Below, piece by piece: positions 19,093 through 55,672 of a DNA stretch of 64,000 bases. The stretch lies in NCBI GenBank assembly GCA_031273455.1, contig JAISRZ010000096.1, positions 1 through 64,000 of the forward strand, given 5' to 3'. The DNA comes from Deltaproteobacteria bacterium (GTDB lineage Bacteria; Desulfobacterota; Desulfarculia; Adiutricales; Adiutricaceae). The notes beneath the pieces are model-generated. The model worked only from the letters and a program-made list of their open reading frames with translations, was not told the DNA's origin and did no database searches. The number at the start of each line of letters is the position of its first letter. The first letter of the stretch is position 1. A program made the translations under genes and the position numbers.

Positions 19093-19179
19093 ATTAAATT
19101 CCAATTAATTAAATATTGAAAGATAAAAATCAGAAAATATTAACTTAAAAAATATTATAAAATTAAAACAATTGATTTA

Positions 19180-24445: not shown

Positions 24446-24698
24446 AAAAATCCGGTCTTAACCGTGACTAATTTTGATCCAGGACTGATTATGATCCAGG
24501 ACTAATTATTATCCAGAGTAAATAGGCCATATTTAATGACCTTAACCACTTAAAAAACACCTTATGTCCTGAAAAAACTAGAAAACCACGACCCATTTTG
24601 GGGCCTTTAACCAAAACGCCCCTCAGCTAAAAGACAACGTCTTTTAAACTTACCATAATCCGGCCTCTAACTTTATCTTATATTTTATCGCCTTTAAC

Positions 24699-27600
24699 TT
24701 AAGCCAAAAACGACTGGTCGGCCATGGCCTTTAATTTAGCGATATCCAGGTTGATGGAGACCACTTCCAGGTCCAGATTGGCGATAATCCGCCCAAACTC
24801 GCGCCCATTTAACATGGGGTCTTTAACGTACCAAACGTCTTGTCGGTCTTCGTCTAGCTCCACTAGAGCCAGGATATAGTCAGCCCGTTTATTTAAGGCG
24901 GTTAGCGTCTCGGTTCTCGTGACCGTGACCGTGGTCGCCCCTTTCACCCGGCCTTTGACCTCCAAAAACCGTAAAGCCGAGCCCCCGGATCGGCTCTCCA
25001 GGGGCACCTTGGACTCAATGTCATAACCAAACTTATGGGCGCTAACATCGGTCGGAAAATACCCTAAGGACTTCTCGATCGCCATGACCCGGGCCATGGC
25101 CGCCATTTCCGCGGCTTTCCGGTCCAGGCCCCCAAACTCCAGCGGGGTTTCTTGCGCGGTCTGCCCCAAAAGACTCTGGACTAGGCCTAAAGGCGCGACC
25201 AAAGCCCCGCCCACTAAGATGGGCGGTAAAGCGGAAATCTCACTTTCTTTTTTAAGCTCGCTTAGTCGTCTATTAAGCCTATCTTCCAGCTCATTAGCCC
25301 ATTTTTGAGCTTTTTTAGAATTGATTTTAGCGTTAACCTTACCGGTTTCCTCTAAGAGCTTTAATTCCGAAGCCTCTTGATACCAATACCTAATCTCGTG
25401 GGCTAACCTTCGATCCACCTGAACCATGGTCTTTTCGATAATCCGCTTTTTGCGGGATTTAACCTCCTCTAGGTGGGCTGGGATGAGCTCTTGGCTGGCG
25501 TAAGCTAAGGCCACGTCCTCAATGTCCGTGGATAACCAGCTTTGGCCTTTCAGGCGCTCCCGGATTAAAGCTTCCTCGTCTTTAGAGGGGGGCCGGTAAT
25601 TAAGATAAGGGGCCACGCCCCCGCTTTTAGCCTCTTTCTGGGCGTCCAATTCCACGTACTCCACGCGCCGGGAAATGACCCTTTGCGAGCCCGTGGCGGT
25701 CAGTAAGTTATCTTGGATGGAGCTTTCCAGGAAAAAGAGAATCCGAGCCTCCTGACCTGGGTCATTGGGGTCAACCAGGATTGACCCTTGTTTTAAAACG
25801 TCGTGGCTCTTTTCCAAGATGGCGGCCACCACCGCGTCCAATAAAGGGTGACCCGGGCACAAAAACTCAGCTTCCGGTAAATCCCTAATCTTTCGGTCGT
25901 TTTTATCGAAACAAACCCTTTCATACGAGCTTAAGATATTAGCCCCGCCTCTAACCATGGGGTCCCGCTCCCGGACGGCTTTCGGGGTGTGGCTAATCTC
26001 AAAGCGGTTTTTCTCCCGGGGATGGATCTTGCCGCCTAGGGTCTTAAAGGCCTTCAGAAAAAAAGACTCAATAAAATGGGGCTGCATCTTATGAGCCTCC
26101 ACCCGCTCCATGGTCTCTTTAACCTCCGTTAGAACCCTAAAGTTCATGACGTCCTCGGTTAAGACCTCCCGCCGTAAAAGCTCCAGGATGCGCGTTTGGT
26201 CGGTGGCCGTGTCCACCACCTGATAAATCCGCTCCCTAACCTCGGCGTCGTTATTATAACGAATGGCGTCGATTAAAAGATCCTTTAACGACTTGTCCTC
26301 AAAGGTTAAGCGGCCTAAAACGTCAAAAACTTTCCCGCCTAAGGCTTCTCTGGCGACCTCCAACTTAGCGAAGAGGACCCCGAAGACCAGACCCTCCCGG
26401 GTCTCGGAAGCCACTAGGTTCCATAAGTGGCAGACTTCCATTTGGCCAATGCGGTGGATGCGGCCAAACCGTTGCTCTAAGCGATTGGGGTTCCAGGGCA
26501 GATCATAATTAACCATCAGATGAGCCCTTTGAAGGTTTATCCCCTCCCCAGCGGCGTCGGTGGCCACTAAGATATAAGCTTCTTTGTCCTGCTTAAAGAG
26601 CCACTCCACCTTCCGCCGCTCTTCCCGGCTGAGGCCCCCGTGGATGTTGACCACGGCCTTGTCGTTGGCTAAGAGATCCCGGATTTTTTCGGTTAAGTAA
26701 TTAAGGGTGTCTCGATGCTCAGTGAAGATGATGAGCTTTTGCCGCTCACCATTGGGTTTAACGATTAAGCGGTTCCGCTCGATTAGCCCGACCAGCTCAT
26801 TCCACTTCCGGTCCTCCCCGCTATGGCGGACCTTTTTCGCCAACTCCTCTAAGCGGCCCAAAGTCGCGATCTCAGCTTCCAGTTCTTTGACGGTCTTAGC
26901 CGCCGAGGCCTCATCGGTGATCCTTTGCTCTAGTTCCTCCGACTCCCCGGTGGGCCAATCATCGTCATCCTCTAGGCGAGCCGAGTATTTATCGTAAATG
27001 GAGACCGTTAGGGTCAAACCGTTTTTCTCCAGCTCCAACCGACTTTTAAGGCGTTCCCGGCGTCTGATTAAAGACTGATAAATGGCCTCCGGCGAGGAGG
27101 CCAAGCGTCTTTGCAAAGAAATTAAAGCGAACCCCACCGCCGTCTTTTTGTCCCCGGTTAAGCGGTTGGCCCGGTTAAACTCGGCCCTGACGTACTCGGT
27201 GACCTCTTCGTAGAGTTGAGCCTCCCCCGGGGCTAAGGCGTATTTAACGGTGTAGGCTAAACGCTCCGGAAATAGCGGGGTCCCATCGAACCGCAATAAA
27301 TCCTCTTTGACCATCCGCCGCATGACGTTGGAGACATCCACGGGCTGATAATTGGTCCGGGGGGAACACTCAAAACTATCCTCATCGACTAAAGACAAAA
27401 AGAGCTGGAAATCGCTTTCCTTCCCATTATGGGGCGTGGCCGTCAATAACAAAAAGTTACGGGTAATATGGGATAAAAGGCGGCCTAAATGGAACCTTTT
27501 AGTGTACTTTATCTCCCCCCCCCAGAAGGTGGCCGACATCTTATGGGCCTCATCGCAGACTATTAAGTCCCAATCGCTGGCCTTAAGCTTATCTTTAAGC

Positions 27601-28241
27601 TGGTCGTTCCGGGATAAGGTGTCTAGGCGGGCGAGCGCCAGATCAATATCGGTAAAGGGATTGCTAGTGACGGTGGAATTGAGCCGCTCGCTAGTTAAGA
27701 TCTCAAACTTTAGATGGAATTTAGTGTAAAGCTCCTCTTGCCACTGCTCCACTAAAGAGCCGGGGGTGACGATGAGGCAACGCTTGACCTCGCCCCGAAT
27801 CATCAGCTCTTTAATCAAAAGCCCGGTCATGATGGTTTTCCCGGCCCCCGGATCGTCGGCTAAGACAAACTTTAAAGGTCGCTTCGGTAGCATGTCCTGG
27901 TAAACGGCCATGATCTGATGGGGTAAAGGCTCAATGTCCGAGCTATAAACCGATAGATAGGGATCAAAGAGGTGGGCTAAACGAATCCGAAAACCTTCGG
28001 AGGCTAACTTAAACTGGTCAGGATCGGCGGCGAAGCTAAAGGGGAGCCCTTTAGCCACTATTTCCAAGGTTGTTTCGTCCTCGCGGGTGAGTAATCTAGT
28101 TCCTAAAGCTCCTTGGTCATTTTTGTAAATAACCTCCAGGCACCCCGGGCCTCGGGGGATGAGGCTGACCACGCTAACCGCGTCCTGGCCCCATAAGCCC
28201 TTAACCCGGCTTCCCACCTTGATATCATTTAGAATAGGCAT
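24699..28241 (-). CDS. SNF2-family DEAD/DEAH helicase with C-terminal DUF3883 domain
   Basis: FVLADDPGAGKTIMTGLLIKEL, LIVCDEAHKMSA, LLTATPHNG, LVATDAAGEGINLQRAHLMVNYDLPWNPNRLEQRFGRIHRIGQ; C-term FGYDIESK...LRFLEVKGRVKGATTVTVTRTE. Confidence 0.92.
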   Translation of the reverse strand: MPILNDIKVGSRVKGLWGQDAVSVVSLIPRGPGCLEVIYKNDQGALGTRLLTREDETTLEIVAKGLPFSFAADPDQFKLASEGFRIRLAHLFDPYLSVYSSDIEPLPHQIMAVYQDMLPKRPLKFVLADDPGAGKTIMTGLLIKELMIRGEVKRCLIVTPGSLVEQWQEELYTKFHLKFEILTSERLNSTVTSNPFTDIDLALARLDTLSRNDQLKDKLKASDWDLIVCDEAHKMSATFWGGEIKYTKRFHLGRLLSHITRNFLLLTATPHNGKESDFQLFLSLVDEDSFECSPRTNYQPVDVSNVMRRMVKEDLLRFDGTPLFPERLAYTVKYALAPGEAQLYEEVTEYVRAEFNRANRLTGDKKTAVGFALISLQRRLASSPEAIYQSLIRRRERLKSRLELEKNGLTLTVSIYDKYSARLEDDDDWPTGESEELEQRITDEASAAKTVKELEAEIATLGRLEELAKKVRHSGEDRKWNELVGLIERNRLIVKPNGERQKLIIFTEHRDTLNYLTEKIRDLLANDKAVVNIHGGLSREERRKVEWLFKQDKEAYILVATDAAGEGINLQRAHLMVNYDLPWNPNRLEQRFGRIHRIGQMEVCHLWNLVASETREGLVFGVLFAKLEVAREALGGKVFDVLGRLTFEDKSLKDLLIDAIRYNNDAEVRERIYQVVDTATDQTRILELLRREVLTEDVMNFRVLTEVKETMERVEAHKMQPHFIESFFLKAFKTLGGKIHPREKNRFEISHTPKAVRERDPMVRGGANILSSYERVCFDKNDRKIRDLPEAEFLCPGHPLLDAVVAAILEKSHDVLKQGSILVDPNDPGQEARILFFLESSIQDNLLTATGSQRVISRRVEYVELDAQKEAKSGGVAPYLNYRPPSKDEEALIRERLKGQSWLSTDIEDVALAYASQELIPAHLEEVKSRKKRIIEKTMVQVDRRLAHEIRYWYQEASELKLLEETGKVNAKINSKKAQKWANELEDRLNRRLSELKKESEISALPPILVGGALVAPLGLVQSLLGQTAQETPLEFGGLDRKAAEMAAMARVMAIEKSLGYFPTDVSAHKFGYDIESKVPLESRSGGSALRFLEVKGRVKGATTVTVTRTETLTALNKRADYILALVELDEDRQDVWYVKDPMLNGREFGRIIANLDLEVVSINLDIAKLKAMADQSFLA

Positions 28242-37993: not shown

Positions 37994-38114
37994 AATACCC
38001 GTTTAATAACCAAGTCGCCTTAGGCGAGCGGATTAAAAACTCTATATTCTAACTATCTAACAACTATCAAAAACCCATAAATTTAAGTTATTTAAAAATA
38101 AGGCCACGATAAAC

Positions 38115-40556
38115 ATGATCAAATTAAAAAAAGCCGAAAACGTTCTACCCGCCCCTTTGGCCATTGATAAAGACATTCAAAAGGCCTTAAAAAACGCTCT
38201 TTACGTGGGGATAGATTTTGGGACTTCCAACACCGTGGTTAGTTACCTCTCTTACAACCCCCAAAACCGCCTCATAGCCCAACCGTTCGCCTTGGCCCAA
38301 CCGACTATTGAAGGCGAGCCGGCGGTCTTGGAGCTGGTTAATAGCGTTTTAGCCTATCGCCCCCCTAAGCTTCTCTTTGGCCGGGAGGCCTATAACTTAC
38401 GGACCGACCTTTTTGAGGGCAAGAACTGCTTTTCCTCTTTTAAGATGCGCTTAGGCTTAGACGAAGGGCCCTCCTACCCGGAGACGGTCTTAAGTAAGGC
38501 CGCTAAAGGCCCTTACGTCATTGAGACAGCCACGGACGCGACCCGGGAGTTTTTTATCGGCCTTTACGCTTCCATCAAATCCGCGGTTAAAAAACTAGGT
38601 TTACCGGAAAAGATCTACTTCGCCGTCTCGGTCCCGGCCTCCTTTGAGGCCAACCAACGGCGCGATTTACTGACGGCGATCAATGAGGCCGGTTTTCCGG
38701 TCGATGAGTCCTGTTTGATCGATGAGCCCAACGCGGCCTTTTTAAGTTATTTTTTCGCGACCTATATAGACCCTCAAGATAACGATTTGACCCACTTATT
38801 AACCACCAAAAAGAAAGCTAACATCTTAATTTATGACTTTGGGGCGGGCACTTGCGACGTTTCGATCTTAGAAATAAAGTTTGACCAGAAAAAATCCTTT
38901 TTCACTTCCAGAAATATGGCCATTTCCCGGTTCACGGCCTTAGGCGGCGATGACCTGGATCGGGCCATTAGCCAGGAAATCTTGATCCCCCAGTTATTGC
39001 GCTCCAACCCCGAGTACCAGCCCTTAGGTCGGCATATCGCGGAAAAGTTGGTCCCGAGGTTAATGCCGGTGGCGGAACGCTTAAAAGTTATCGCCATGGA
39101 ATACCTAACCTTGAGGAATCTAACCACTTTAAAAGATATTAGGCTCCATGAGCCAGTGACCTTCGCCACCCAAGGGATTAAACCCTTTAAAATTAATAGT
39201 AATTGTCTATCTTTACCTAACCCCAAACTGACTTTAGAAGAATTAGGCCGAATCCATCAAGAGTTTGTGGTTAAAAAGACCACTAAATATCAGCCGCTCC
39301 ACGTTTTTGGGCCCATTGACGACGCTCTTATGAAAGCCCAAATCTCGCCAGACCAACTGGATTTTCTTATCTTTATCGGCGGTAGCTCCCATAACCCCTT
39401 GGTCCGGCAAGCTATTTTAAGCGAGTTGCCGTCCAATATTGAGGTTATTATCCCCGCCGATCTTCAACGCCATGTCTCTATTGGGGCCAGTTACCATTCT
39501 TTGTACTATCACGCCCTAAAAATAGACATGATTAAACCCATCACCCCGGAAACTATCTTTGTCATCACTAAAGACGAAAAACTAAAGGAACTGATTCCGG
39601 CCTCCACCCCGGTTCCCACGGAAAAAGAATACCTGACGCGGCTAAAGGTCCCAGAAGATCGCCAGGCGATGATTGAGCTCCCCATTTGCGTGGGCAGCGC
39701 GGCTAAGCTTTTGGGGGTTCTCCAAATACCGGCCCCAACTTTTCAGGGCTTTCCAGAAAAGGCCGAGGTTGAGGTGACCGCCGCCATCACCCAGGAAAAA
39801 TCCTTAAAAATAGACGTGGAGGTTTTAGGCCTTAAAATTCCCACGGTCTTCCTTAACCCTTTAGCCAATCGGCCTTTAACCGAGGTCGAACAGACCTTCC
39901 TAGCGGCCAAAAAGCTCTATAACATCGCCTTACTGGAATCCGGCGGGCGTCCCCCAGTGGCCACGCTCCTCAATTACGCCCACGCGGCCATTAAGGCTAA
40001 AGATTACCAAACCGCGGTCGATACGCTAATCACCGCCTGTCGCTTGGATCCGAAGCTAGATAAGGCCACCGATATAGCCTATTGTTACGCCCAACTGGGT
40101 AACGTTAAACGGACTAACGATTGGACCGCCCGAGCCTATGACCAGAAGAAAAACTATTTAACCGCTTATAACTTAGCGGTTGATAAAGACGGTCAAGAAA
40201 AAATCACTCTTTTACGTGAGTCTTTAAGTTATAATAGTGATTTTACCTACGCGTTATATGATTTAGGGATGGAACTATATATAAACGATAACCCTGAACA
40301 CCAGATTCATTTAAATAAATTCACCCAGCTGGTTAAAGAAGATATTAAATATGGTAGAAAAGTCAATCAACGGCTTTTGGAATGTCTTAAAAAAATCGGT
40401 AAATTGTTTCATAATGAAAAACTTATTAGCTTGGCCGAAGGAGAGCTTTTAAAAAGCCGAGGAACTAGCCCAGGCTCTAGCCCGAAAAAAGCCCCGTATA
40501 AGGAGAAGAACCTCACCATCGCTAAAAACGCCCCTAAAAACAAAATTAATGACTAA
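38115..40556 (+). CDS. Hsp70-like ATPase with C-terminal TPR-like repeats
   Basis: YVGIDFGTSNTVVSYL, LIDEPNAAFLSYFF, LIYDFGAGTCDVSIL, LIFIGGSSHNPLVRQAIL; helical repeats in the last 200 aa. Confidence 0.88.
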   Translation: MIKLKKAENVLPAPLAIDKDIQKALKNALYVGIDFGTSNTVVSYLSYNPQNRLIAQPFALAQPTIEGEPAVLELVNSVLAYRPPKLLFGREAYNLRTDLFEGKNCFSSFKMRLGLDEGPSYPETVLSKAAKGPYVIETATDATREFFIGLYASIKSAVKKLGLPEKIYFAVSVPASFEANQRRDLLTAINEAGFPVDESCLIDEPNAAFLSYFFATYIDPQDNDLTHLLTTKKKANILIYDFGAGTCDVSILEIKFDQKKSFFTSRNMAISRFTALGGDDLDRAISQEILIPQLLRSNPEYQPLGRHIAEKLVPRLMPVAERLKVIAMEYLTLRNLTTLKDIRLHEPVTFATQGIKPFKINSNCLSLPNPKLTLEELGRIHQEFVVKKTTKYQPLHVFGPIDDALMKAQISPDQLDFLIFIGGSSHNPLVRQAILSELPSNIEVIIPADLQRHVSIGASYHSLYYHALKIDMIKPITPETIFVITKDEKLKELIPASTPVPTEKEYLTRLKVPEDRQAMIELPICVGSAAKLLGVLQIPAPTFQGFPEKAEVEVTAAITQEKSLKIDVEVLGLKIPTVFLNPLANRPLTEVEQTFLAAKKLYNIALLESGGRPPVATLLNYAHAAIKAKDYQTAVDTLITACRLDPKLDKATDIAYCYAQLGNVKRTNDWTARAYDQKKNYLTAYNLAVDKDGQEKITLLRESLSYNSDFTYALYDLGMELYINDNPEHQIHLNKFTQLVKEDIKYGRKVNQRLLECLKKIGKLFHNEKLISLAEGELLKSRGTSPGSSPKKAPYKEKNLTIAKNAPKNKIND

Positions 40557-40644
40557 AATCACGTAAAATCATTCATAATATTGTTATTACGCGCCTAATT
40601 TAACAGCGCGTTAATCTTTAGCTAAGATATATAGGATTATTCGC

Positions 40645-41856
40645 ATGACCTGGTGGATTCCTGAAAATCAATTATCTGAAAATCAAAATATTCTAATAAA
40701 TTGTTGTGTTTTAGAAAATAATGATTATGTTTGGTTAAGGGGTTTCCCCGGCTCGGGCAAAACTTTATTATTACTACATATCGCTATAAGGTTGTTGTCA
40801 CATAATCTTAAAGCTAAAATTGGCGTTATTACATATACTAACAGCTTAGCGGACCTATTATGTTCATGTCCATTTTTTGACGATCAACCTGATAATGTAA
40901 TTTTTAACTCTCATGTTAGCTTTTATTTGAATAATAGAAAACATTTTGATTATATTTTTATTGATGAAATACAGGATATACCTATTCATCATCTAGCCAA
41001 AATTAAGACAATGGGCGATAAAATTTATTTCGCTGGCGATTTTGATCAAACAATCTACCCCCAAAGATGCTCTATTTCTGAATTGCGCGCATTATTCAAT
41101 CCGCTCGCGGAATATCATCTGACTGAGGTGTTTCGCTTAACGCCCAACGTTTTCGCTCTGGCCAAGCGCGTAGCCGGGGATAATGGCGTGGAGAGCGAAG
41201 TGGCGCTTAACCCGAAAAACCCTAACATCAAGCTAATTGAAGTTGGCGATAGCGAAAAATACGAGGAGGTGGTCTGGATCGTTGAGAACGCTTTAAAACT
41301 GGCTCAACCTGGCCAACCTTCCGCGATCCTCTTTCAATGTCATGATGATATTTTTGATTTTGGATTATATTTGACAACTTATTTTGAGCAAAAATATAAA
41401 ATTAAATCGTATGGTCCTATTCTCCATTTTGGCTCCTCCGAGGACGCCTATAGGTCATTTAACGACACCTGTAAGCGTCATGGGCTTTTTTTTCGATATC
41501 TTAATTATTACAGCGCTAAGTTTGCGGAAAGCGAAGGAATCCCCCTCGTTTATCTCTCCACCATTCATAACGCTAAAGGCTTAGAATTTAACAATGTTTT
41601 TTTACCCAGCCTTACTCAGGGCGCTTTTGTGGACAGCGAGAAAGTCAAAGGTTGGAACCTATTTTTGGTCGCCATCACCCGGACCAGAGAAAATCTTTTC
41701 ATAACCTACCCGACCCACAATTATTTTGATTATATTGATCAATCGCCAGCGTCTATATGCTCGAAACTTTGGCTTAAAGATCTAATTCACCCGCCAACTG
41801 TTAAGAAAGAAGAAGGCCCGGCGGAAGAAGAGGAGGATGAGGGCATCGTTTTTTAG
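40645..41856 (+). CDS. Compact UvrD/Rep-like superfamily 1 helicase or ATPase
   Basis: LRGFPGSGKTLLLLHIA, YIFIDEIQDI, GDFDQTIY, YLSTIHNAKGLEFNNVFLP, FLVAITRTRENLFIT. Confidence 0.85.
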   Translation: MTWWIPENQLSENQNILINCCVLENNDYVWLRGFPGSGKTLLLLHIAIRLLSHNLKAKIGVITYTNSLADLLCSCPFFDDQPDNVIFNSHVSFYLNNRKHFDYIFIDEIQDIPIHHLAKIKTMGDKIYFAGDFDQTIYPQRCSISELRALFNPLAEYHLTEVFRLTPNVFALAKRVAGDNGVESEVALNPKNPNIKLIEVGDSEKYEEVVWIVENALKLAQPGQPSAILFQCHDDIFDFGLYLTTYFEQKYKIKSYGPILHFGSSEDAYRSFNDTCKRHGLFFRYLNYYSAKFAESEGIPLVYLSTIHNAKGLEFNNVFLPSLTQGAFVDSEKVKGWNLFLVAITRTRENLFITYPTHNYFDYIDQSPASICSKLWLKDLIHPPTVKKEEGPAEEEEDEGIVF

Positions 41857-41870
41857 CCCAAGGGGCGCTA

Positions 41871-42599
41871 TTAAGCTTTAGGGGTCATTTGCGTAATTTG
41901 GCCATCCAAAACTTGACCATTGGCTTTTTTAGTCCGTTTGACCCCATCAGCCCCCCAGGCTCCCCATTGTTTAAAGAAAAAGGGGATGGCCATTTTTTCG
42001 GTCAGCCGCTTAATTGACCTCGCCCACTCGGGCTTCATGACTCGGGCGTTAACCCCGGTTTCTCCACCAACTATGACCCAATTAATATTCTTTAGATCAA
42101 TAAAACCTAAGTCTTCGAGTAACGGCTCACAGGAAATAAACTTTATTGAACAATCAATTTCTCTTAAAAAATCAATCCGTCTTTTGGCTGGGCCATTTTC
42201 CACCGTCACTCCCAGCCAGACATGAGCCGGAGCCGGGTTTTGGGCGAAGTAGTTGGCCATCCTGGCCGCCCGTTTGGTCAATATTTGAAAATAATGCCAT
42301 TTGGCGCTATTGATGGTGGCCATAACCTGGTCGATAAAACTGAACGGTATGGCTTCATGGAAGAGATCGGCCATGGAACAGACAAAAATCGAGCGCGGTC
42401 GTTTCCATTTTAAAGGCTCATTTAAAGAATCATGATGCGCGGTCGGGGTAAACCCTTGGGCGTATTTGGGCGAGCCCATAGCTTGGAGGCGGCGGGCTAG
42501 AGTTTGGGCGTAACAGTTATCGCAGCCAGAGGAAATTTTTGAGCAACCGGTCACGGGGTTCCAGGTCAGGTCGGTCCACTCTATCTTGGTTCCACTCAT
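41871..42599 (-). CDS. Phage Gp37/Gp68-like DUF5131 protein
   Basis: TKIEWTDLTWNPVTGCSKISSGCDNCYAQTLARRLQ, WLGVTVENG, WVIVGGETG. Confidence 0.9.
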   Translation of the reverse strand: MSGTKIEWTDLTWNPVTGCSKISSGCDNCYAQTLARRLQAMGSPKYAQGFTPTAHHDSLNEPLKWKRPRSIFVCSMADLFHEAIPFSFIDQVMATINSAKWHYFQILTKRAARMANYFAQNPAPAHVWLGVTVENGPAKRRIDFLREIDCSIKFISCEPLLEDLGFIDLKNINWVIVGGETGVNARVMKPEWARSIKRLTEKMAIPFFFKQWGAWGADGVKRTKKANGQVLDGQITQMTPKA

Positions 42600-42645
42600 T
42601 TAAAAGCCCTTCTAAATAATAGCGCGACTAGAGTAACAATAAATT

Positions 42646-44223
42646 ATGATATCAACTAATGCGATTAGAAAGATAGAATATGGAGATTTTCAAACACCAG
42701 AGTTATTCGCTCGAAAAGTTTGTCAGAAAATTCATGACATATATAAATTGTCACCATCAATAATATTAGAACCTACATTTGGGATTGGAAATTTTTTTCC
42801 CGGGATAATTTCAACTTTTCCTCAGCCATTTAAACTTTTTGGTATAGAGATTAACAGTGATTACTACAATATTGCTCAACAAACAATTTCAAAATTGACG
42901 CCCAATAATATTCAACATCAGAATATTCAAATTAAGTTATTTAATGACGATATTTTTTCTTTTAATTATGATAAAATTAAAGATTCTTTGTCAACTGACA
43001 ATCATTTATTAATAATTGGTAATCCTCCGTGGGTAACTAATTCCCAGCTTTCATCATTGAATAGTAACAATATTCCAAATAAAACTAATCAAAAAGCTTT
43101 ATGCGGTTTAGATGCAATTACAGGTAAAGCTAATTTTGATATTGGAGAGTATATTATTACTAGTCTTTTATGTGAATTTTCTAATTTCAATTGTTTTTTG
43201 GCTATGATATGCAAATTAACTGTCGCAAAAAATATCATTAGAGATTTATCAGCTTACAATTTATCGATAAATATAGCTGATGTATATGTTTTTAAAGCTA
43301 CTGATGTATTTAATATTAATTGTGACGTTTGTCTCTTTGTGACGCAACTGGGCAATGACCATAAGAAAGTTTGTTCTGTATATGATTTTGACACTAATAA
43401 AAAAATACGTACCTTCGGTTGGTTAAATGGGTCTTTCTATTCAAATTTTAATGGCCAAGAAAAATCCGCTTTTGATGGGAAGTGCCAACTGGAGTGGCGA
43501 CAAGGTATTAAACATGATTGCGTAAAAGTTATGGAATTTATGTCATCAGATGAAGTTTATTTTCAAAATTTGTTGAAAGAAGTTCACTCTTTTACAATGG
43601 GACGTTATATATTTCCATTAATAAAGAGTTCTGACATAAAAAGTTTTTATATAACTAAAACACGAAAGTATGTTCTAGTGCCTCAAAGTCGTGTTAATGA
43701 AGAAACATCAATTATTAAACATATTGAGCCTAATGTATGGGATTATTTACAAAATCATAAAAACTACTTTCAGGCTAGACGTTCTTTAATTTACAAAAAT
43801 TCTCCTGAATTTTCTATTTTTGGTGTAGGCGATTATTCATTTTCAAAAATTAAGATTGGTGTCTCAGGTTTTTATAAAGAGCCTATATTTTCATTAATTA
43901 TTGGTCAATACCCAATAATGCTGGATGATACATGTTACTTTCTAAGCTTTAACGATTTAAATGACGCTATTATTACTTTATCACTTTTAAACAGCAAAGA
44001 ATGCAATTCTTTTCTAAAGAATATTGCATTTTTGGAATCTAAAAGGCCGTTTACAAAAGAAATACTACAAATGATTGACCTTTATAAGCTATCTGAGGCT
44101 GTTAGCTTTGAAACAATAAGTCAATTTATATTTGATAATTTAAATAGTTATACTATATCAATCGAAGACTTCATTAATTTCAAAGAAAGATTTAAAATGC
44201 TACAAGAACAAAGATTATTTTAG
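42646..44223 (+). CDS. SAM-dependent N6-adenine DNA methyltransferase
   Basis: IILEPTFGIGNFFPGI (SAM site), LLIIGNPPWVTNSQL (NPPW catalytic motif); AT-rich. Confidence 0.87.
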   Translation: MISTNAIRKIEYGDFQTPELFARKVCQKIHDIYKLSPSIILEPTFGIGNFFPGIISTFPQPFKLFGIEINSDYYNIAQQTISKLTPNNIQHQNIQIKLFNDDIFSFNYDKIKDSLSTDNHLLIIGNPPWVTNSQLSSLNSNNIPNKTNQKALCGLDAITGKANFDIGEYIITSLLCEFSNFNCFLAMICKLTVAKNIIRDLSAYNLSINIADVYVFKATDVFNINCDVCLFVTQLGNDHKKVCSVYDFDTNKKIRTFGWLNGSFYSNFNGQEKSAFDGKCQLEWRQGIKHDCVKVMEFMSSDEVYFQNLLKEVHSFTMGRYIFPLIKSSDIKSFYITKTRKYVLVPQSRVNEETSIIKHIEPNVWDYLQNHKNYFQARRSLIYKNSPEFSIFGVGDYSFSKIKIGVSGFYKEPIFSLIIGQYPIMLDDTCYFLSFNDLNDAIITLSLLNSKECNSFLKNIAFLESKRPFTKEILQMIDLYKLSEAVSFETISQFIFDNLNSYTISIEDFINFKERFKMLQEQRLF

Positions 44224-44283
44224 CGGTTTTATTGAATAGATTTCTATCTTAAAGACCTAAAGTTTTGGCTGGGGCAAGGTGGG

Positions 44284-44329
44284 CCAGTCCTCCGCAACAC
44301 CAGTCCTCCGCTACCAGTCCTCCGCTACT
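44284..44329. repeat. Three direct copies of ccagtcctccgc(t/a)a
   Basis: ccagtcctccgcaacaccagtcctccgctaccagtcctccgcta. Confidence 0.85.
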
Positions 44330-44337
44330 GACACCCT

Positions 44338-44652
44338 ATGAACTCCGCCAAAAAATTAGAGAATTTATGGTGGAAAAAAAATTATGAATTCAGGTTTATT
44401 CCAAAGTTAGAATCGCTACGCTGTTTAAAGAGAACTTTTTTAATGGATAATAATATCGTATACTTTCATAGGTCCAAACGCCTAGGCGATTGGTTCGAAA
44501 AACTTTCGGTTGCTTGCTACCTAGCAAGCGCATTTCAAGATATGAAACATCCTTATGTTCCTGGCCTTATATCTATCTTGTTTTTATATATTTCTTGTTA
44601 CTATACTGATTTATGCGGCTTACTAACAAAAATAAACAAAAACAATGAATAA
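44338..44652 (+). CDS. Hypothetical protein with C-terminal hydrophobic segment
   Basis: 104-aa ORF in the same AT-rich island; YVPGLISILFLYISCYYTDLCGL. Confidence 0.4.
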   Translation: MNSAKKLENLWWKKNYEFRFIPKLESLRCLKRTFLMDNNIVYFHRSKRLGDWFEKLSVACYLASAFQDMKHPYVPGLISILFLYISCYYTDLCGLLTKINKNNE

Positions 44653-44672
44653 CCTATTTCTAAGCAGACATT

Positions 44673-44813
44673 ATGATTAACGAAAAACAATTCATAATAA
44701 ATACCCTCATTTACGCTATTTCTGGCATTATTATTGTTTGGTTCTTTGGGTGGCGCGATCGCAGAAAGAACAAAAACGCCGCCAAAAACTTAGATCATAA
44801 AGACAACAACTAA
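44673..44813 (+). CDS. Small single-TM protein (46 aa), below the ORF-track cutoff
   Basis: Hand translation MINEKQFIINTLIYAISGIIIVWFFGWRDRRKNKNAAKNLDHKDNN*. Confidence 0.45.
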   Translation: MINEKQFIINTLIYAISGIIIVWFFGWRDRRKNKNAAKNLDHKDNN

Positions 44814-44902
44814 CCAAATGACCCCACCCTCCCTATGGCGGGCTCCCAAAAACGGCCCGCCACGCTAACTTTAAAAAACCAAGATAATGAAGGCGGTCTT
44901 TT

Positions 44903-45550
44903 TTAAATAGCCCACTTCTCCAGCTTATAAGCCGAATCCCAAAACAGCCACTCCATCTTCGAGGCTAGAATAAAAACCTTCAGCATCTCCGCCCGAATGG
45001 CCTCGGTCGTCTCTGCGGCGAACCGGTCAATAATGCCCAAAGCGGTCCGTACCCCTTGGGCGAACTCCTCGCCGCCGTAAAGATCGATCCAGCTCTGATA
45101 GGGGTTATGGGGCGTTTTAGGTAGGCTTAGAAGATAATCGCCCACCTTCTGGTAAATCCAGAAGCAAGGGATGGTGGAGGCGAAGGCCGTTTCCCCGGCG
45201 GCCACGGATAACTGCCGGTACAAAAAGGAAGTGTACAAAAGACAGGACGGGGAACGCTCGGCGGAGAGGTTTTGATCGGCCAAATAGAGCTTATGTAAGA
45301 CCATTTCCGCCTTAATATGCTCCGAGGCGAAGCCCAATAAACTATCCACATCGCTTTTAACTTGGCATTTAATGGCCACGCCGGCTAAGACTTTCCCAAA
45401 GTCCTCCAAGTACAGGGCGTCCTGGTTCATGAAGAAAAGGAATTTCTCCCGGTCTAAGGTCCCTAAGGAAAGCTCCCGAATGAAAGGATGTTGGGTAATG
45501 GCCGCGAAGATAGGCTCAATGGCTCGCCAGGCGTTCTGACTCCAGCTCAT
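44903..45550 (-). CDS. tenA: TenA/thiaminase II family protein
   Basis: HPFIRELSLGTLDREKFLFFMNQDALYLEDFGKVLAG, ACFWIYQKVGDYLL-like segment, YQSWIDLYGGEEF. Confidence 0.9.
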   Translation of the reverse strand: MSWSQNAWRAIEPIFAAITQHPFIRELSLGTLDREKFLFFMNQDALYLEDFGKVLAGVAIKCQVKSDVDSLLGFASEHIKAEMVLHKLYLADQNLSAERSPSCLLYTSFLYRQLSVAAGETAFASTIPCFWIYQKVGDYLLSLPKTPHNPYQSWIDLYGGEEFAQGVRTALGIIDRFAAETTEAIRAEMLKVFILASKMEWLFWDSAYKLEKWAI

Positions 45551-45823
45551 GGTGGGGTGGTCCTTTTAGTTTGTGGATTAATAGTTTCCCCTTGGAGGTT
45601 TTCCTCTTGGAGTTTTCCTCTTGGAGAAAGGTCTTGGGCGTGAATATCTTTTAAAGCAAACTGATATTTATATATTATTATTTAAAGACTAAAATAAAGA
45701 CAATAAACTTTAACAGTACAATTAACGCATACCAAAAATGATTAAGGTTTAAGATTATTGTCTAACCTTAAACCTTATCATAAACTTCTAAATGGTTTTA
45801 TGGTTCTTAAAGAAAAGGGAATA

Positions 45824-49159: not shown

Positions 49160-49620
49160 GTCCCAAAGTTTTTCGGGCGGATTTAACCCCCCTTAACCGA
49201 CTAAGAAAGCTTAAACCCCTTTAACCAACTATATTGGCCCTAAAAGCCAAAAAATGCCCCTAGCCGCTAATCCTAAGGCTCTAAAGGGCCCGAAACGCCC
49301 CTAAGGGCGAGCCAAATAAAGCCCTTTTCGCGGCTAACGCTCGCGCTTGGCCCTAAGCGACTGGCTCTAGCCCTCGACTGGGGGGTTAGGGGGGCTATCG
49401 CCCCCCCCTAATTATATTAGTTGGTAGCGCTTTTAGGGGTGGCCATAAGGGCCAAAATAACCCCAAGGACGTAGGGATAGGTATTTGACCAAAGAGGCCC
49501 TAACGTGTCAAGATACAGCTACTTTTACGCCGGTGGCCTCTTATTAAGAGCTAACCTTTTTACGCCCTAACCTTATGGTTGGGGACATACCGGCGGCCCG
49601 CACCTTTGGGAGGCCCGTTA

Positions 49621-50643
49621 ATGACCAGGAAACTGCCTGTTTACCTCTTGCTGGACACCTCGGAGTCCATGGCCGGGGAAGCTTTGGAATCCGTGGAGAT
49701 TGGGGTCCATAAGACCATCTCTAGCTTAAAAAAGAACCCCTACGCCTTGGAATCGGTCCATCTTTCCATTATCACCTTCGCCGCCAAAGCTAAAGTCGTC
49801 TTGCCTTTCACCGAGATCTTAGCCGTTAACCCCCCGGCCTTATCCATTAAACCAGGCACTTCCTTGGGGGCGGCCTTGGACCTTTTACGGGAATCCATCT
49901 TAAAGGACGTCACCCGGACCACCCGGGAGGAAAAGGGCGATTTTCGGCCCTTGGTCTTTATCTTAACCGATGGCCAGCCCACCGACGATTGGCGGGGGCC
50001 TTTAGCCCGCTTAAAGGAAGTTAAACCTCGGCTCGGGCATATCTACGGGGTGGGTTGCGGGGATGAGGTCGATTTTGAGACCTTAGGCCAAATAGCCGAT
50101 GTCTCCATCCAGGTGGAAGCGGCCACTAGCGATAGTTTAGCCAAGTTTTTCGTCTGGTTGACGGATAGCGTCCAATCGGCCAGCGTCAGCCCAGACACCC
50201 CCCTTAGCTTAGAAAAGACCCCGCCTTTGGATAAGGGCATGAACCTTATTGATAAAAACAGTCCGCCCAAGTTCCATCCGGAAACGGTTCGGCTCCACTT
50301 TCACGCCACTTGCTCCAAAACCAAAAAACATTACCTCATGCGCTACCGCCATGATCTAACCCGACCGGTCTACTTTTTTGAAAGGTCCTTCGCGGTGCCC
50401 GAGGACTTTTTCGCGGATGGGTCATTAAAAGCCCCGGCCACTGACGCGGGGTCGCTTTTAGGCTCCTCGGACTGCCCTTATTGCCACGGCGACGCCTGGG
50501 GCAAATGCGGCTTTTGCGGGCATATTTTTTGTTTGGACTCGAACAACCTTCAACCCGAGGTCACTTGCCCCTTCTGCGAGACCCATCTGACTTTGGACCC
50601 TAGAAACGACGCCAACTTTAGCGTGGACGGCTCGGTCGGTTAA
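49621..50643 (+). CDS. VWA domain protein with C-terminal zinc ribbons (TerY-like)
   Basis: MIDAS-like LLLDTSESMAGE, FILTDGQPTDDW; CPYCHGDAWGKCGFCGHIFCLD...CPFC. ATG at 49621 preferred over the 49579 start. Confidence 0.85.
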   Translation: MTRKLPVYLLLDTSESMAGEALESVEIGVHKTISSLKKNPYALESVHLSIITFAAKAKVVLPFTEILAVNPPALSIKPGTSLGAALDLLRESILKDVTRTTREEKGDFRPLVFILTDGQPTDDWRGPLARLKEVKPRLGHIYGVGCGDEVDFETLGQIADVSIQVEAATSDSLAKFFVWLTDSVQSASVSPDTPLSLEKTPPLDKGMNLIDKNSPPKFHPETVRLHFHATCSKTKKHYLMRYRHDLTRPVYFFERSFAVPEDFFADGSLKAPATDAGSLLGSSDCPYCHGDAWGKCGFCGHIFCLDSNNLQPEVTCPFCETHLTLDPRNDANFSVDGSVG

Positions 50644-50775
50644 AGGCCGCCCTAGGGTTTTGGGTTAAGGCGGCTAGCTAGGCTAAGACCTTCAAAAGAG
50701 GCTCTTTCCGGTTTTTTTTAGGTTTTATGTTTAAACTTAAAACGGATCTTTTGACCCGGAAAATCGTTATTTCTG

Positions 50776-50784
50776 TGCTATAAT
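50776..50784 (+). promoter_or_regulatory. Candidate extended -10 promoter (TGcTATAAT)
   Basis: TG at 50776 and consensus TATAAT at 50779-50784; no good -35 at 17 bp. Confidence 0.55.
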
Positions 50785-50816
50785 TAATTGACAATTCTTG
50801 GCCAAAACCGGGTTTA

Positions 50817-50861
50817 GCCCTTAAGTCCTTATACTGACTTAAGGCGTTTTTGGGGTTTTTT
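50817..50861 (+). terminator. Rho-independent terminator-like hairpin
   Basis: CCTTAAGTC (50819-50827) / GACTTAAGG (50836-50844), then cgtttttggggtttttt. Confidence 0.75.
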
Positions 50862-51025
50862 CAGGGCGACCCTTTTTGGTTAGCTAACCTAAGATTTTCT
50901 TTTTTAATCAACTTTTTGGATCAACTTTTTGGATTAAGGGGGCGCCCCTCGGGGGGGTTACCTTTCCTTAGCTAGCCACTAGGTGAGGCCAGATAAGCCC
51001 TTAACTTTGACGTTGGAGAACTTTA

Positions 51026-54000
51026 ATGCCCAATCATTGGTCCCGCTCTTTGGCCAACCGCTTGGCCACGCTAAGCCTTACCCTAGTGACGTTATTGGGG
51101 GTTTTAAGCGCTCTTCCGGCTTGGGCCTATTCCTCTAAGGAGATCGGGGCCCCCCCGAGCTTAGAAGTCTGGAAGGATTGGGTTCTCTTTCAAAACTATC
51201 CCGAGGCCTATTGCCCGCGATACCATCGCTCCCCAATCAGTTGCCAATGGGCGAGCGGTTTAACCTTAAACTTAACCGAGACTAATGGCTCCTTCACCGG
51301 GACTTTTGTGGTCTTCGCGCCTTTAACCATTAGACTCCCGGGCGGGCCCAAAGCTTGGCCCAGCGCGGTCACCGATAGCCTTAACGGTCAACCCCCGGTG
51401 CCCTTGCCCGTGGTTAACGAGGATGGGCCGCGGGTTTACTTAACCCCGGGTCGCCACGTCATTAAAGGCCAATGGGCTTGGCCCAAACCGCCGGACACCT
51501 TAACTTTGCCCCTGGTTCACCTAGTCACGGTCACTTTAAACGGTCAAGAGGTCCTTTTCCCCTATCAAGAGATTAACTTCGTTAATGAGACCATCTTTTT
51601 TTGGTTAAAAGATCCCCAAAGCCCCAGCCTGGCTCCCCCCCCGCCTAACCCTAACGACCAGGCGGCCAATTTAGATGAGCTGAAAGTCACCTTGGACCGT
51701 TTAATCATGGACGATCAGCCCATGCGGGTGACCACCCGGGTTAAGCTGACCGTTTCCGGTCGGGAAAGGGAAGAGACTTTAAAAAGCCTCCTTTTGCCCG
51801 GCTCCATTCCCACGGTCCTCCGCTCGCCCTTACCGGTCCGCTTAATCGACGAGGGCTTAAGAGTCCGGGTGAAACCGGGGATCTATGAGATCCTGGTCAC
51901 CGCCCGTTTAGCCGGCGAGACGACTGATTTAGGGCCCGTTAGCGACCTTTATGGCTCGGAGAACTGGGCCGTCCTTCTAGACCCGGCCTTACGGCAAGCC
52001 GAGATCTCCGGGGCCCCCCAGATTGACGCCAGCCAAACTGACCTCCCTTGGCGGCGCCGGAATCTACCCATCTACGTCTTGGCCCCTGGCCAAAGCTTAA
52101 CTTTTAAGACCTTGCGCCGGGGGGATCCGGATCCGGGCCCCGACCAACTGGCTTTGGAGCGGAGCTGTTGGTTAGATTATAACGGCCAAGGATTGTCCTG
52201 TCGGGACCATTTGTCCGGGGTCATGCGCGGCGGTTGGAAGCTCTCGGCGGATCCGCCCTTTGTTTTAGGCCAAGCCAGCGTCAACGATCAGCCCCAGGTC
52301 TTAACCTACGAGGTTAACTCCAAAGGCCAAAAGACCCCGGGGCTCGAGTTGCGGCGGGGACAGTTTAACTTAACCGCCGACTTGCGCTTAAACGACTTTC
52401 AAGGGGTCTTGCCCGCCTCGGGCTGGGATCATAACTTAGTGAGCTCAGCCCAAATCCTCCACTTGCCCCCGGGTTATCAACTAGGGAGCGTCTCTGGGGC
52501 CCGGGCCACTAACTCGAAAGGCCAACCAATCAGCTGGTTTGACCGCTGGAACACTTTAGATCTTTTTGTGGTCTTAGCCATCTTTCTGGCGGCCTTAAAG
52601 ACCAAGGGCAAACTCTTCGCCCTTTTGGCTTTAGGGGCTTTAGTCTTGTCTTACCATGAGTTTATGTCCCCGAGGGTGGTTATCCTCCATGTTTTAGGGG
52701 CTTTGGCTCTTCTAAAGGTTCTACCCAGTTTTGGGGTGGCTAGGGGGTTAGTTAAAGTCTGGCTCGGTTTGGCCCTTATGTTTTTAGCTTTAGTTTCCGT
52801 GGTCTTTGTGATCCACCAAGCCCGGATCGCCATGTACCCCCAGTTGGAGAACCCCCACGCTTACGTCCCCGGGGCCTTTGGTTATCCCATGTCCGAGGCC
52901 TTTTATAAACGGAGCGAGGCGGTTAGGTATCAATCCCAGGAATTTGGGAGCGGGTCCGCCTTTGACTTAGAGGATTCTTACTCCGAGCCTCTAGTCGAGT
53001 CTCCAGCCGAGTCTCTAGCCGAGGTGGAAGAGCGACCGAGCTCCGCCCCCAAGCTTAGCCGTAAGCAAAGCGCCGGCAAAGCCGATAATCTGGCGAGAAG
53101 CGTCGCCCCGAGCCCGAACGGCTCGGCCTTAAATCAGGCCTCAATGGCCACGCCCAACCCCGAGGCCATTGTCCAAAACAGCTTGGCCCGGCCCGACTGG
53201 CAATGGCTCCCCATCTATTTGGACTTTAATGGCCAAGTGGCTAGGGATCAGGAAGTTAAAATCTATCTCTTAGGCCCCACCGTCCGCCGGCTCTTGTTTA
53301 TCTTAAGGATCGCTTTATTGGTGGCCCTAGTTCTAAAGCTCGTCTCTTGGTCTTTTAAGGCTGGTTTTAAACCCGGCGCCCCTAATCCGACTAGCGACCC
53401 CGATAACGGTCCGGCTTTAGAGCCAACGCCGGACCCCGAGCCCGCTAGCTCATCGTCCGCTAGCTCATCGCCCGCTAGCTCATCGTCCGCTAGCTCCGCG
53501 ACTACCCTAGCTGGGCCAATCCCGGCCCTAGCCCTCCTTTTGGCTCTGGTCTTGGGGGTTGTCTTCAGCTGGGCGGAGCCGCTTACGGCCCAATCCATAA
53601 CGCCCCAGACCTTTCCCTCGGAGGCGCTTTTAAACGAGTACTTGACCCGCTTAACCTTGCCCGACCCCCGGAACTTAACCCCCGGGATCCCCAAAGTGAC
53701 CATAGAGGCTAAACGCCACACTTTAAAAATGACCTTTGAGGTCGAGGCCGTGGGCGAGGCGGTTTTGGGGCTCCCGAGCTTAGACGCCAGCTTTTTCCAA
53801 GCGCGGGCCATTAATCTGGCCTCCGGGGAAGGGTTACCGGTTATTTTACAGTCCGGCCCCCGGGCCTTCGTTTTAGTTCCCGCGGGCCTTAACTCTTTTG
53901 TTTACGAGGGCCGGGTCAAACCGACCGAGCTCCTCCAGATCCGGTTCCCCGAGGAGTTTCGGCCCCAACGGGTGTTTTTTAGCGGCGATGGCTGGGTAAT

Positions 54001-55672
54001 CTCTGGGGTGGATAAAGACGGCTTTTTAGAAAGTGAGACCATCCACTTAATTAACGTTTCCGCTCTCCCGTTAGATAAGGGCGCTCCCGATCCCGAAGCG
54101 GTCGAGCCGGAGCCCAAGGAAGGATCTGAGGCGGCCCCCGATATCGCCCCGGAAATGGGGTTAAAGCCCTTTTTTAAGGTCAACCGGGTTCTGGCCTTAG
54201 GTTTAGAGTGGCGGGTGATCACCACCATTAACCTGGACGAGCCCATGAAGTACCCGGTGGCTTTGCGCTTACCCCTTATCCCCGGGGAAAAGCCCATTTC
54301 CTCTAAGTACCAGATCCAAAAGGGCCAGATCTTAATCGACTTTCCGCCGAGCCAAACTTCGGCCGCCTTTGAGTCCACCTTAACCGTGGGCCAAGAGTCT
54401 TTGGTCTTAACCGCTGGCCAAGGGCCCTACAATGAGACCTGGTTCTTAGACGCCTCCACCCTCTGGCGGGTTGAGCCCACTGGCCTAACCCCCATCTTAA
54501 ACTTAAGCCCCCAAGGGTTCTGGAACCCCCAGTGGCGGCCTTGGCCGGGGGAGTCCTTAACTTTAAAGATCGTTAAACCCGAGCCCGTGCCCGGGGTCTA
54601 TTTAGTGGCCGACGAGGCCGACTTAAAAGTCGTTTTAGGCCAAAGGAACCGCCGTTTTGAGCTGACCTTGGCTTTACGCTCCAGTCGCGGCGGGGTCCAC
54701 GCCTTTCGGTTACCCAAATTAGCCGAGATCCAGACTTTAACCTTAAACGGTCGGAACCTGGCCTTTAGCCCGGATCTTAGCTCCGAGGGGCCCCTAGTCA
54801 CCATCCCCTTACAACCCGGGAACCTTTCTTTAAATTTAACCTGGCTCTCGCCCGAGCCTTTAACCGCCAAGTTCGTCACCCCGCCTTTGGACTTAGGTTT
54901 GCCCACGGCCAACGTCAACATTAAGGTGGCCGTCCCGGAGGATCGGTTAGTTTTTTTAGCTGGGGGCCCGGTGCAAGGGCCGGCGGTTCTCTTTTGGTCC
55001 ATGGCGGGGGCCCTCTTGGTCCTCTCTTACGCTTTAGGCCGGACCAAGATCACCCCTTTAAAGGCCACGTCTTGGTTTTTGCTCTTTGTGGGCCTATCCC
55101 ACTTAAGTTTGCTCCAGGCGGCCTTTCCGGTGGCCGCCTGGCTCTTGGTCTTAGGTTTGCGCGGTCGGGGCGGCTTTAAGACCCCCGGGCTCTTTAACCT
55201 CTCCCAGATTATCTTGGTCGTTTGGACCATCTTGGCTTTGGACGCCATTTACCGGGGCTTAAAGCGGGCTCTTTTGGAAGCCCCGGCCATGCGGGTCACC
55301 GGGAATGGCTCCAACGCCACCAACTTAAACTGGTTCCAAGACCAAGCCGCGGGCTCTTGGCCCGAGGCTTGGGCTTACACCTTAAGCGACACGGTTTACC
55401 ATTACATCATGCTGGCTTGGGCCTTGTGGCTGGCCATCGCTTTAATCCGCTGGCTCATCTGGGGCTATAAGGCCTTCGCCACCAATGGCCTCTGGAAAAA
55501 GTTCCCGAAAAAAGAGAAAAAGCCGGTTAGATCCGCCGCCAGAAGACCGCTTTCGGCCAAGGACGTCCTTTCCGTTGGACCCCCCATAGAGGCCCCCCCG
55601 GAAGAACCTAGCTCTCCAGATGAGCCTAGCGGACCAAAAGGCCCCAACCAGTCGGGTTCGCCCACCGCCTAA
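51026..55672 (+). CDS. Large exported multi-TM protein of unknown function (1548 aa)
   Basis: Signal peptide (LSLTLVTLLGVLSALPAWA), several TM clusters, Ser/Ala-rich low-complexity linker at 53440-53510. Confidence 0.75.
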   Translation: MPNHWSRSLANRLATLSLTLVTLLGVLSALPAWAYSSKEIGAPPSLEVWKDWVLFQNYPEAYCPRYHRSPISCQWASGLTLNLTETNGSFTGTFVVFAPLTIRLPGGPKAWPSAVTDSLNGQPPVPLPVVNEDGPRVYLTPGRHVIKGQWAWPKPPDTLTLPLVHLVTVTLNGQEVLFPYQEINFVNETIFFWLKDPQSPSLAPPPPNPNDQAANLDELKVTLDRLIMDDQPMRVTTRVKLTVSGREREETLKSLLLPGSIPTVLRSPLPVRLIDEGLRVRVKPGIYEILVTARLAGETTDLGPVSDLYGSENWAVLLDPALRQAEISGAPQIDASQTDLPWRRRNLPIYVLAPGQSLTFKTLRRGDPDPGPDQLALERSCWLDYNGQGLSCRDHLSGVMRGGWKLSADPPFVLGQASVNDQPQVLTYEVNSKGQKTPGLELRRGQFNLTADLRLNDFQGVLPASGWDHNLVSSAQILHLPPGYQLGSVSGARATNSKGQPISWFDRWNTLDLFVVLAIFLAALKTKGKLFALLALGALVLSYHEFMSPRVVILHVLGALALLKVLPSFGVARGLVKVWLGLALMFLALVSVVFVIHQARIAMYPQLENPHAYVPGAFGYPMSEAFYKRSEAVRYQSQEFGSGSAFDLEDSYSEPLVESPAESLAEVEERPSSAPKLSRKQSAGKADNLARSVAPSPNGSALNQASMATPNPEAIVQNSLARPDWQWLPIYLDFNGQVARDQEVKIYLLGPTVRRLLFILRIALLVALVLKLVSWSFKAGFKPGAPNPTSDPDNGPALEPTPDPEPASSSSASSSPASSSSASSATTLAGPIPALALLLALVLGVVFSWAEPLTAQSITPQTFPSEALLNEYLTRLTLPDPRNLTPGIPKVTIEAKRHTLKMTFEVEAVGEAVLGLPSLDASFFQARAINLASGEGLPVILQSGPRAFVLVPAGLNSFVYEGRVKPTELLQIRFPEEFRPQRVFFSGDGWVISGVDKDGFLESETIHLINVSALPLDKGAPDPEAVEPEPKEGSEAAPDIAPEMGLKPFFKVNRVLALGLEWRVITTINLDEPMKYPVALRLPLIPGEKPISSKYQIQKGQILIDFPPSQTSAAFESTLTVGQESLVLTAGQGPYNETWFLDASTLWRVEPTGLTPILNLSPQGFWNPQWRPWPGESLTLKIVKPEPVPGVYLVADEADLKVVLGQRNRRFELTLALRSSRGGVHAFRLPKLAEIQTLTLNGRNLAFSPDLSSEGPLVTIPLQPGNLSLNLTWLSPEPLTAKFVTPPLDLGLPTANVNIKVAVPEDRLVFLAGGPVQGPAVLFWSMAGALLVLSYALGRTKITPLKATSWFLLFVGLSHLSLLQAAFPVAAWLLVLGLRGRGGFKTPGLFNLSQIILVVWTILALDAIYRGLKRALLEAPAMRVTGNGSNATNLNWFQDQAAGSWPEAWAYTLSDTVYHYIMLAWALWLAIALIRWLIWGYKAFATNGLWKKFPKKEKKPVRSAARRPLSAKDVLSVGPPIEAPPEEPSSPDEPSGPKGPNQSGSPTA

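Follow-up and report, generated by a model that had tools for sequence, protein, structure and literature searches.

Type II and III CoCoNuT systems comprise the superfamily 1 (SF1) helicase CnuH, the HEPN effector CnuE, the Hsp70-like CnuD and McrBC (PMC11090510). Gabija comprises an OLD nuclease, GajA, and a UvrD-like helicase, GajB. A third system, bNACHT25, senses phage via DnaJ/DnaK (PMC12169576). Here we describe a locus that joins an Hsp70 gene to an SF1 helicase gene in a 64,000-nucleotide stretch of DNA from a deltaproteobacterium of the family Adiutricaceae (the window; positions 1 to 64,000 of contig JAISRZ010000096.1, assembly GCA_031273455.1). The first gene encodes an Hsp70 with a tail resembling tetratricopeptide repeats (TPR), and the second a minimal helicase. 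Both belong to an operon that recurs across phyla with a third gene, which is absent here. On balance, we regard the pair as an incomplete version of a mobile conflict cassette that has three genes, most likely anti-phage, in which the Hsp70 would gate the helicase.

Distribution of the gene pair

Both open reading frames (ORFs) were reproduced as the first-pass annotation of the window gave them, in coordinates, strand, length and 88-bp spacing (Table 1). The locus was compared with 148 related genomes, counting convincing homologues of both proteins. Eight other genomes, all from the same family, hold the two, and in all eight (two of which are truncated at a contig end) the Hsp70 and helicase genes are adjacent, in the same order and on the same strand. 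The helicase is present in 10 of 37 family genomes, totals that are drawn from draft genomes of 61-96% completeness. A wider scan of 84,980 species genomes revealed, among the matches listed, full-length helicase orthologues in at least the Bacteroidota (Polaribacter, Bacteroides, Prevotella, Adhaeribacter, Pontibacter, Emticicia and Chitinophagaceae), Haemophilus sp. HMSC068C11, betaproteobacteria and one Rhodospirillales single-cell genome. An Hsp70 of about 800-1060 aa is encoded directly upstream of these orthologues wherever the contig permits, with the exception of locus L074, and the window likewise has its Hsp70-TPR gene directly upstream of the minimal helicase gene on the same strand. 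The order Hsp70, helicase, third gene (the trio) is kept in Bacteroidota, Haemophilus and betaproteobacteria, and the Antarctobacter plasmid pSMS3-3 carries the three on their own, flanked by IS6 and IS256 transposase genes. The gap between the Hsp70 and helicase genes is -17 to 20 bp at the other loci, compared with 88 bp in the window, where a scan for promoters and terminators gave nothing clearly above chance. The first-pass annotation had proposed a candidate undescribed module, to be checked by its co-occurrence in other genomes. The pair does recur, and across phyla, so that the pairing holds, and we found no description of it; the module, however, normally has a third gene, and the window copy is incomplete.

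Three related arrangements differ from the trio. At the divergent Rhodospirillales locus (L074:2490-12947), the helicase and a third-like protein, without Hsp70, directly follow DpdD and a PLD-like gene, so that Dpd islands may have this dyad in common with the trio. Another genome (G127; L044:8618-11740) encodes a cousin of the Hsp70-TPR protein with 33% identity, followed by a 236-aa ORF of no known kind and without the helicase, a related but different pairing. Finally, a genome of the same phylum (G087; L045:1-8708) has a further cluster, distinct from the trio, in which an Hsp70 is accompanied by coiled-coil proteins and proteins of unknown kind.

Structure of the two proteins

The Hsp70 has an intact nucleotide-binding domain (NBD). 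Alignment reveals the phosphate-1 motif GIDFGTSNTVVS, the phosphate-2 motif YDFGAGTCDVSI and the adenosine motif FIGGSS, including the invariant residues G32, D34, G36 and T37; D241, F242, G243, G245, T246 and D248; and G422, G423 and S424. The protein matches Pfam HSP70 at 3.7e-19 and TPR_8 marginally; TPR matches are weak in the window Hsp70 and clearer in its orthologues. It shares 42-46% identity with the trio Hsp70s of its family relatives. The family profile covers the DnaK ATPase domain and, in a second aligned stretch (profile 401-601, DnaK 312-514), the end of the NBD, the linker and the beta part of the substrate-binding domain (SBD-beta). The absence of a standard DnaK C-terminus had been pointed out from the window sequence. 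This is correct for the helical lid of DnaK, which is replaced by the TPR-like tail, but not for SBD-beta, which is retained in the profile alignment. The window Hsp70 thus has neither the score of the NCBIfam DnaK equivalog (71 bits, with a cut-off of 822) nor its complete lid. As had also been observed, neither dnaJ nor grpE adjoins the pair; a bona fide dnaK of the ordinary type lies about 40 kb from the module on the same contig (C76:80005-81789).

The helicase matches Pfam UvrD_C at 1.1e-13 and has Walker A and the motifs DEIQD, GDFDQTIY, KGLEF and VAITRTR. Residues 8-65, 211-357 and 533-618 of UvrD are covered by its family profile, which skips residues 66-210 and 358-532, corresponding to most of domains 1B and 2B. 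The description of the protein as UvrD-like and compact is therefore accurate. The C-terminal tip is conserved and mostly acidic, the final residue being F in 20 of 23 family members, and is a candidate dock for the TPR tail of the Hsp70 or for the third protein. The sequence does not discriminate between DNA and RNA as substrate, and the chaperone gating of a DNA helicase, as originally proposed, is something that we only infer.

Table 1. Coordinates of the module and of neighbouring features in the window.
Feature	Position	Strand	Remarks
Gene 1, Hsp70-TPR protein, 813 aa	38115..40556	+	ATPase domain at residues ~29-468, SBD-beta at ~470-575, TPR-like tail at ~600-780
Hsp70 NBD	38199..39518 (limits approximate)	+	From alignment with relatives and DnaK
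Linker and SBD-beta-like segment of Hsp70	39522..39839 (limits approximate)	+	Aligned to DnaK 312-514
Gene 2, minimal SF1 helicase, 403 aa	40645..41856	+	1A and 2A motor domains, without 1B and 2B
Helicase C-terminal tip	41827..41853	+	Acidic and aromatic (...EEEEDEGIVF-COOH)
Expected third-gene start in relatives	41857..41870		Here 14 bp, then the convergent DUF5131 gene
Inserted segment, 7.8 kb	37994..45823		Between amiC and a conserved membrane-protein/GNAT/radical-SAM block
DUF5131 gene	41871-42599	-	Convergent with the helicase gene; Pfam DUF5131, 1.9e-99
Methyltransferase gene	42646-44223		After DUF5131; PADLOC MTase_II, 8.7e-115

The third gene and the HEPN fusion

At all assessable trio loci except the window, a third gene lies downstream of the helicase gene, overlapping it or at most 47 bp away (gap of -1 to 47 bp). 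In the window no third gene directly follows the helicase gene, and none was found in a search of the whole genome at E<=1e-3 (4.24 Mb, 94% complete). The window copy is thus an incomplete derivative of the trio. The third protein has 330-630 aa and no significant match in Pfam or PADLOC; public annotation gives the three genes as Hsp70 family protein, AAA family ATPase and hypothetical protein. Structure models of a betaproteobacterial and a Bacteroidota member (predicted local distance difference test, pLDDT, 88.7 and 85.5) both predict an N-terminal alpha/beta domain of about 110 residues and then an all-helical domain, with the same order of elements. Full-length third proteins end in low-complexity tails. 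Independent profiles of the Adiutricaceae (A2) and Bacteroidota/Haemophilus (A12) families match in hhalign at E 0.001 over the N-terminal 134 columns, which, together with the shared order of secondary structure and the operon position, argues for homology across phyla. A comparison of A2 with A7 was set aside, as these profiles share sequences.

A Foldseek comparison of the models with solved structures gave no match at E<=0.001. An ADP-ribosyltransferase of the Tpt1/DarT kind was considered from the first model, which matched Tpt1 (E 0.027, probability 1.00) and, weakly, DarT, and was dropped. The Tpt1-like match was not reproduced with the second model, from the Bacteroidota branch; hhalign revealed no profile match to 11 KptA/Tpt1 sequences; and the family has no conserved Arg/His/Glu pattern of ADP-ribosyltransferase catalytic residues.

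Some trio Hsp70s are fused to an RNase-like domain. At three betaproteobacterial-type loci, the Hsp70 N-terminus harbors a Swt1-type HEPN domain (HEPN_Swt1; L067, 5.8e-11; L068, 1.1e-14; L071, 1.2e-4). These domains carry the RNase-like Rx4H motif (RNxxxH), which is also present in L151, and the Antarctobacter plasmid Hsp70 has an equivalent N-terminus with an RNRHAH motif, although Pfam does not call a HEPN domain there. The HEPN-bearing Hsp70s are interspersed with those of Adiutricaceae on the Hsp70 tree, and a simple reading would therefore be that the domain was lost in the lineage of the window.

Insertion site and state of the window copy

The pair is part of an inserted segment with a G+C content of 0.406, against 0.556 and 0.496 in the flanks. 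The segment also encodes DUF5131, the methyltransferase and a TenA-like protein, and includes a 104-aa ORF. The site is empty in sister genomes G001 (L184) and G004 (L185), where amiC adjoins the membrane-protein/GNAT/radical-SAM/UPF0016 block. In G006 (L181), the same site holds other genes, including an ImmA/IrrE-like ORF and a 1305-aa ORF that, from reading its sequence, resembles restriction-modification (R-M) proteins. Elsewhere in G001 a helicase remnant lies beside an intact third gene, and elsewhere in G004 an Hsp70 fragment does. In G003 the start of the Hsp70 gene is fused to pieces of the third gene, and G020 and G036 contain third-gene pieces.

In the window, both ORFs are full-length, with no stops or frameshifts and with intact catalytic motifs. 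The helicase has a branch length of 1.88, compared with 0.55 in its sister, and the Hsp70 1.02 compared with 0.70. The helicase differs at 7 positions that are invariant in the 17 other members compared (the next highest count being 3), and the gap between the genes is the longest of the loci compared. Together with the lost third gene, the long branch, the unusual changes and the gap fit relaxed constraint or repurposing in this one genome. The cassette, lacking HEPN and the third protein, may have been pared down and retained solely for interference by the helicase or, with similar probability, may be in the course of being lost.

The next genes are DUF5131 and a methyltransferase, as the first-pass annotation had it, but they are not members of the module. 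DUF5131 is encoded on the other strand, with the methyltransferase beyond it, which places both outside the operon, and neither stands beside the trio at the other loci read. The DUF5131 gene matches the PADLOC candidate PDC-M30B/M41B at 1e-104 and is followed by the type II-like methyltransferase (28% G+C) and the 104-aa orphan ORF (41871-44652). This set may be an R-M-like unit of its own, or a broken one, within the insert; no nuclease partner was recognised. Further along the plus strand, a TerY_C/vWA protein and a 1548-aa membrane protein without Pfam match (49579-55672) are both conserved in G001, with 62% and 52% identity. A protein with AAA-ATPase_like and PDDEXK_9 domains is encoded at 12671-14647 (plus strand), and a gene resembling it is present in G001 as an extra gene between the UPF0016 and TerY genes (L184:8960-10981).

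Defence context

Strong PADLOC matches within 6 kb of the trio were collected from 14 non-Adiutricaceae chromosomal loci. Known defence genes were present at seven of these: Dpd at L071 (assigned by reading that locus), AbiE at L072, MkoA at L073, type I R-M at L075 and at the Pontibacter locus L080, DRT UG19 at L077 and SspBC at L078 of Adhaeribacter rhizoryzae. As a control, the regions around recA in 13 of these genomes gave five model matches, read as about 2 proteins. These regions replaced a first control, the loci of weak UvrD-like matches, which was discarded as itself full of Gabija, Dpd and DRT.

The window contains other genes of defence type. Two AbiH (PF14253) abortive-infection genes lie on the minus strand in patches of low G+C (6810-8012 and 17941-19104; 1.2e-35 and 5e-30). 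A HEPN_Swt1-DUF499 ATPase (1.5e-25, 5.8e-26) is encoded beside a SNF2-type helicase with NOV_C at 20915-28241 (minus strand), an R-M-like arrangement of the Ava_2192 type that is separate from the module.

Discussion

A conflict or anti-phage role of the cassette is plausible, if not statistically firm, given the HEPN fusion, the variable insertion site, the decay in sister genomes and the defence neighbours at 7 of 14 loci. Several observations weigh against it. The enrichment of defence neighbours over the recA control is suggestive and not significant (one-sided Fisher p 0.066), and the Adiutricaceae copies lie mostly among housekeeping genes. Mobile carriage elsewhere amounts to one plasmid and one weak phage-record match, and no full-length member was found in IMG/VR viral contigs. 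The Hsp70s of Bacteroidota, Haemophilus and Adiutricaceae lack HEPN, so that an RNase effector is not universal. Finally, the intact motifs of the window copy argue against plain decay.

The cassette would consist of an Hsp70-TPR ATPase, in some members with HEPN, a 1A-2A SF1 helicase with an acidic-aromatic tip, and a third protein of no known family. We propose that the ADP/ATP cycle of the Hsp70 serves as a sensor-gate, its SBD-beta binding either the helicase itself or a client peptide from a phage protein or an unfolded protein of the host. The helicase would dock through its C-terminal tip on the TPR tail or on the third protein, which may be a non-enzymatic adaptor since it has no conserved catalytic residues. 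Client capture would then release the helicase, or activate it, on nucleic acid that is stalled or comes from an invader; HEPN, an optional executor in the versions that have it, would cut RNA and stop growth. Taken to its full extent, the proposal is of a new class of immune operon, in which a dedicated Hsp70-TPR takes its protein clients as a sign of infection and licenses a docked minimal SF1 helicase with a new-fold adaptor and an optional HEPN RNase executor. We put this forward tentatively, as a possibility rather than an expectation.

The closest competitor concerns the window copy and is compatible with a conflict role at the level of the family. The two genes may be non-functional wreckage, their ORFs open only because the loss of the third gene is recent. 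The genome-wide absence of that gene, the long helicase branch with its seven unique changes at otherwise invariant sites, the long intergenic gap and the remnants in sister genomes all fit this, and we hold it only a little short of an even chance. Two uninterrupted ORFs with intact catalytic motifs speak against it. The third gene could also be in the missing part of a 94% complete genome, yet its usual place is sequenced and lacks it. Alternatively, the trio may serve host stress or nucleic-acid maintenance, with a dedicated Hsp70 that acts for its helicase by remodelling stalled complexes of protein and nucleic acid, in accessory repair or RNA quality control. The Hsp70 does look active and has an SBD-beta, the helicase motifs are intact, and in some genomes the trio is alone among housekeeping genes. 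Core maintenance genes are, however, not usually lost in so patchy a way, the helicase being present in 10 of 37 family genomes and decay being frequent, and the plasmid and insertion-sequence carriage, the HEPN fusions and the variable insertion site also make this role unlikely.

Less probable still is a cassette that resembles toxin-antitoxin or plasmid-addiction systems, with one component holding another in check and any protection from phage being secondary. Such a cassette would suit a compact mobile operon with HEPN in some members, plasmid carriage between insertion sequences and copies that are readily degraded. But the third gene is intact in G001 and G004 without Hsp70 or a full helicase, and the window keeps Hsp70 and helicase without the third gene. 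Because these partial sets survive, no component appears to act as an obligate antidote. As for two chance neighbours, the 88-bp gap and the lack of partner annotation in the window would allow it, but an adjacency that recurs across phyla has already refuted this null, and we give it practically no weight.

If the trio is immune, its core component would be a full Hsp70 with both ATPase and client-binding domains. It could then be tested whether bacteria can use the client occupancy of a dedicated Hsp70, encoded in the operon itself, to sense infection. The third protein represents an unannotated family that spans several phyla; its structure is predicted with high confidence and has no convincing relative among solved ones. 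The HEPN-plus, HEPN-minus and gene-loss versions are a natural series that separates sensor, motor and effector roles.

Comparison with known systems

A description of the trio was not found in the open full-text literature (subscription papers, preprints and newer DefenseFinder releases lie outside this search), and PADLOC 2023 has no model specific to it. The three-gene combination is thus apparently new within the sources searched, and the function that we propose for it is read from sequence. CoCoNuTs resemble the trio in that a single predicted conflict operon brings together a HEPN RNase, an SF1 helicase and an Hsp70-like NBD/SBD. They differ by a core of McrB GTPase and McrC and by CnuH, which is UPF1/DNA2-like with an OB-fold and coiled coils, whereas the trio helicase is UvrD/GajB-like and minimal, with about 390 aa that align to UvrD in 1A/2A only and without the OB-fold/stalk insertion, and the third protein is different. 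McrB or McrC genes were not seen among the trio neighbours read or in the 25 of 63 PADLOC families listed. Since CoCoNuTs have McrBC and a UPF1-like helicase, the trio is not a CoCoNuT. Gabija shares with it a short UvrD-family SF1 helicase and a small gene set. The window helicase matches PADLOC GajB at 5.3e-21 in short stretches, and among PDB profile matches UvrD/PcrA are stronger than GajB, whose similarity is partial. No GajA-like OLD/TOPRIM nuclease was found beside the helicase, the neighbours being Hsp70 and DUF5131 in the window and Hsp70 and the third protein elsewhere.

DnaK has the same ATPase domain, linker and SBD-beta as the trio Hsp70, which differs by the missing helical lid, the TPR-like tail, the absence of dnaJ/grpE beside it and a score far below the NCBIfam cut-off. 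PDC-M61B, a PADLOC candidate, places an Hsp70-like ATPase in a candidate defence set, but its matches are weak (about 4e-5 or worse) and cover short stretches of the Hsp70 domain. The HEPN(Swt1)-DUF499 and SNF2-DUF3883 pairs of the Ava_2192 type (PMC3710099) likewise have an N-terminal Swt1-type HEPN on an ATPase with a helicase adjacent; there, AAA+ (DUF499) stands in place of Hsp70 and an SF2 enzyme in place of SF1. Finally, bNACHT25 works through host DnaJ/DnaK and a NACHT protein, with no dedicated Hsp70 or helicase, and it provides a precedent for chaperone-client load as the infection signal that the trio might read.

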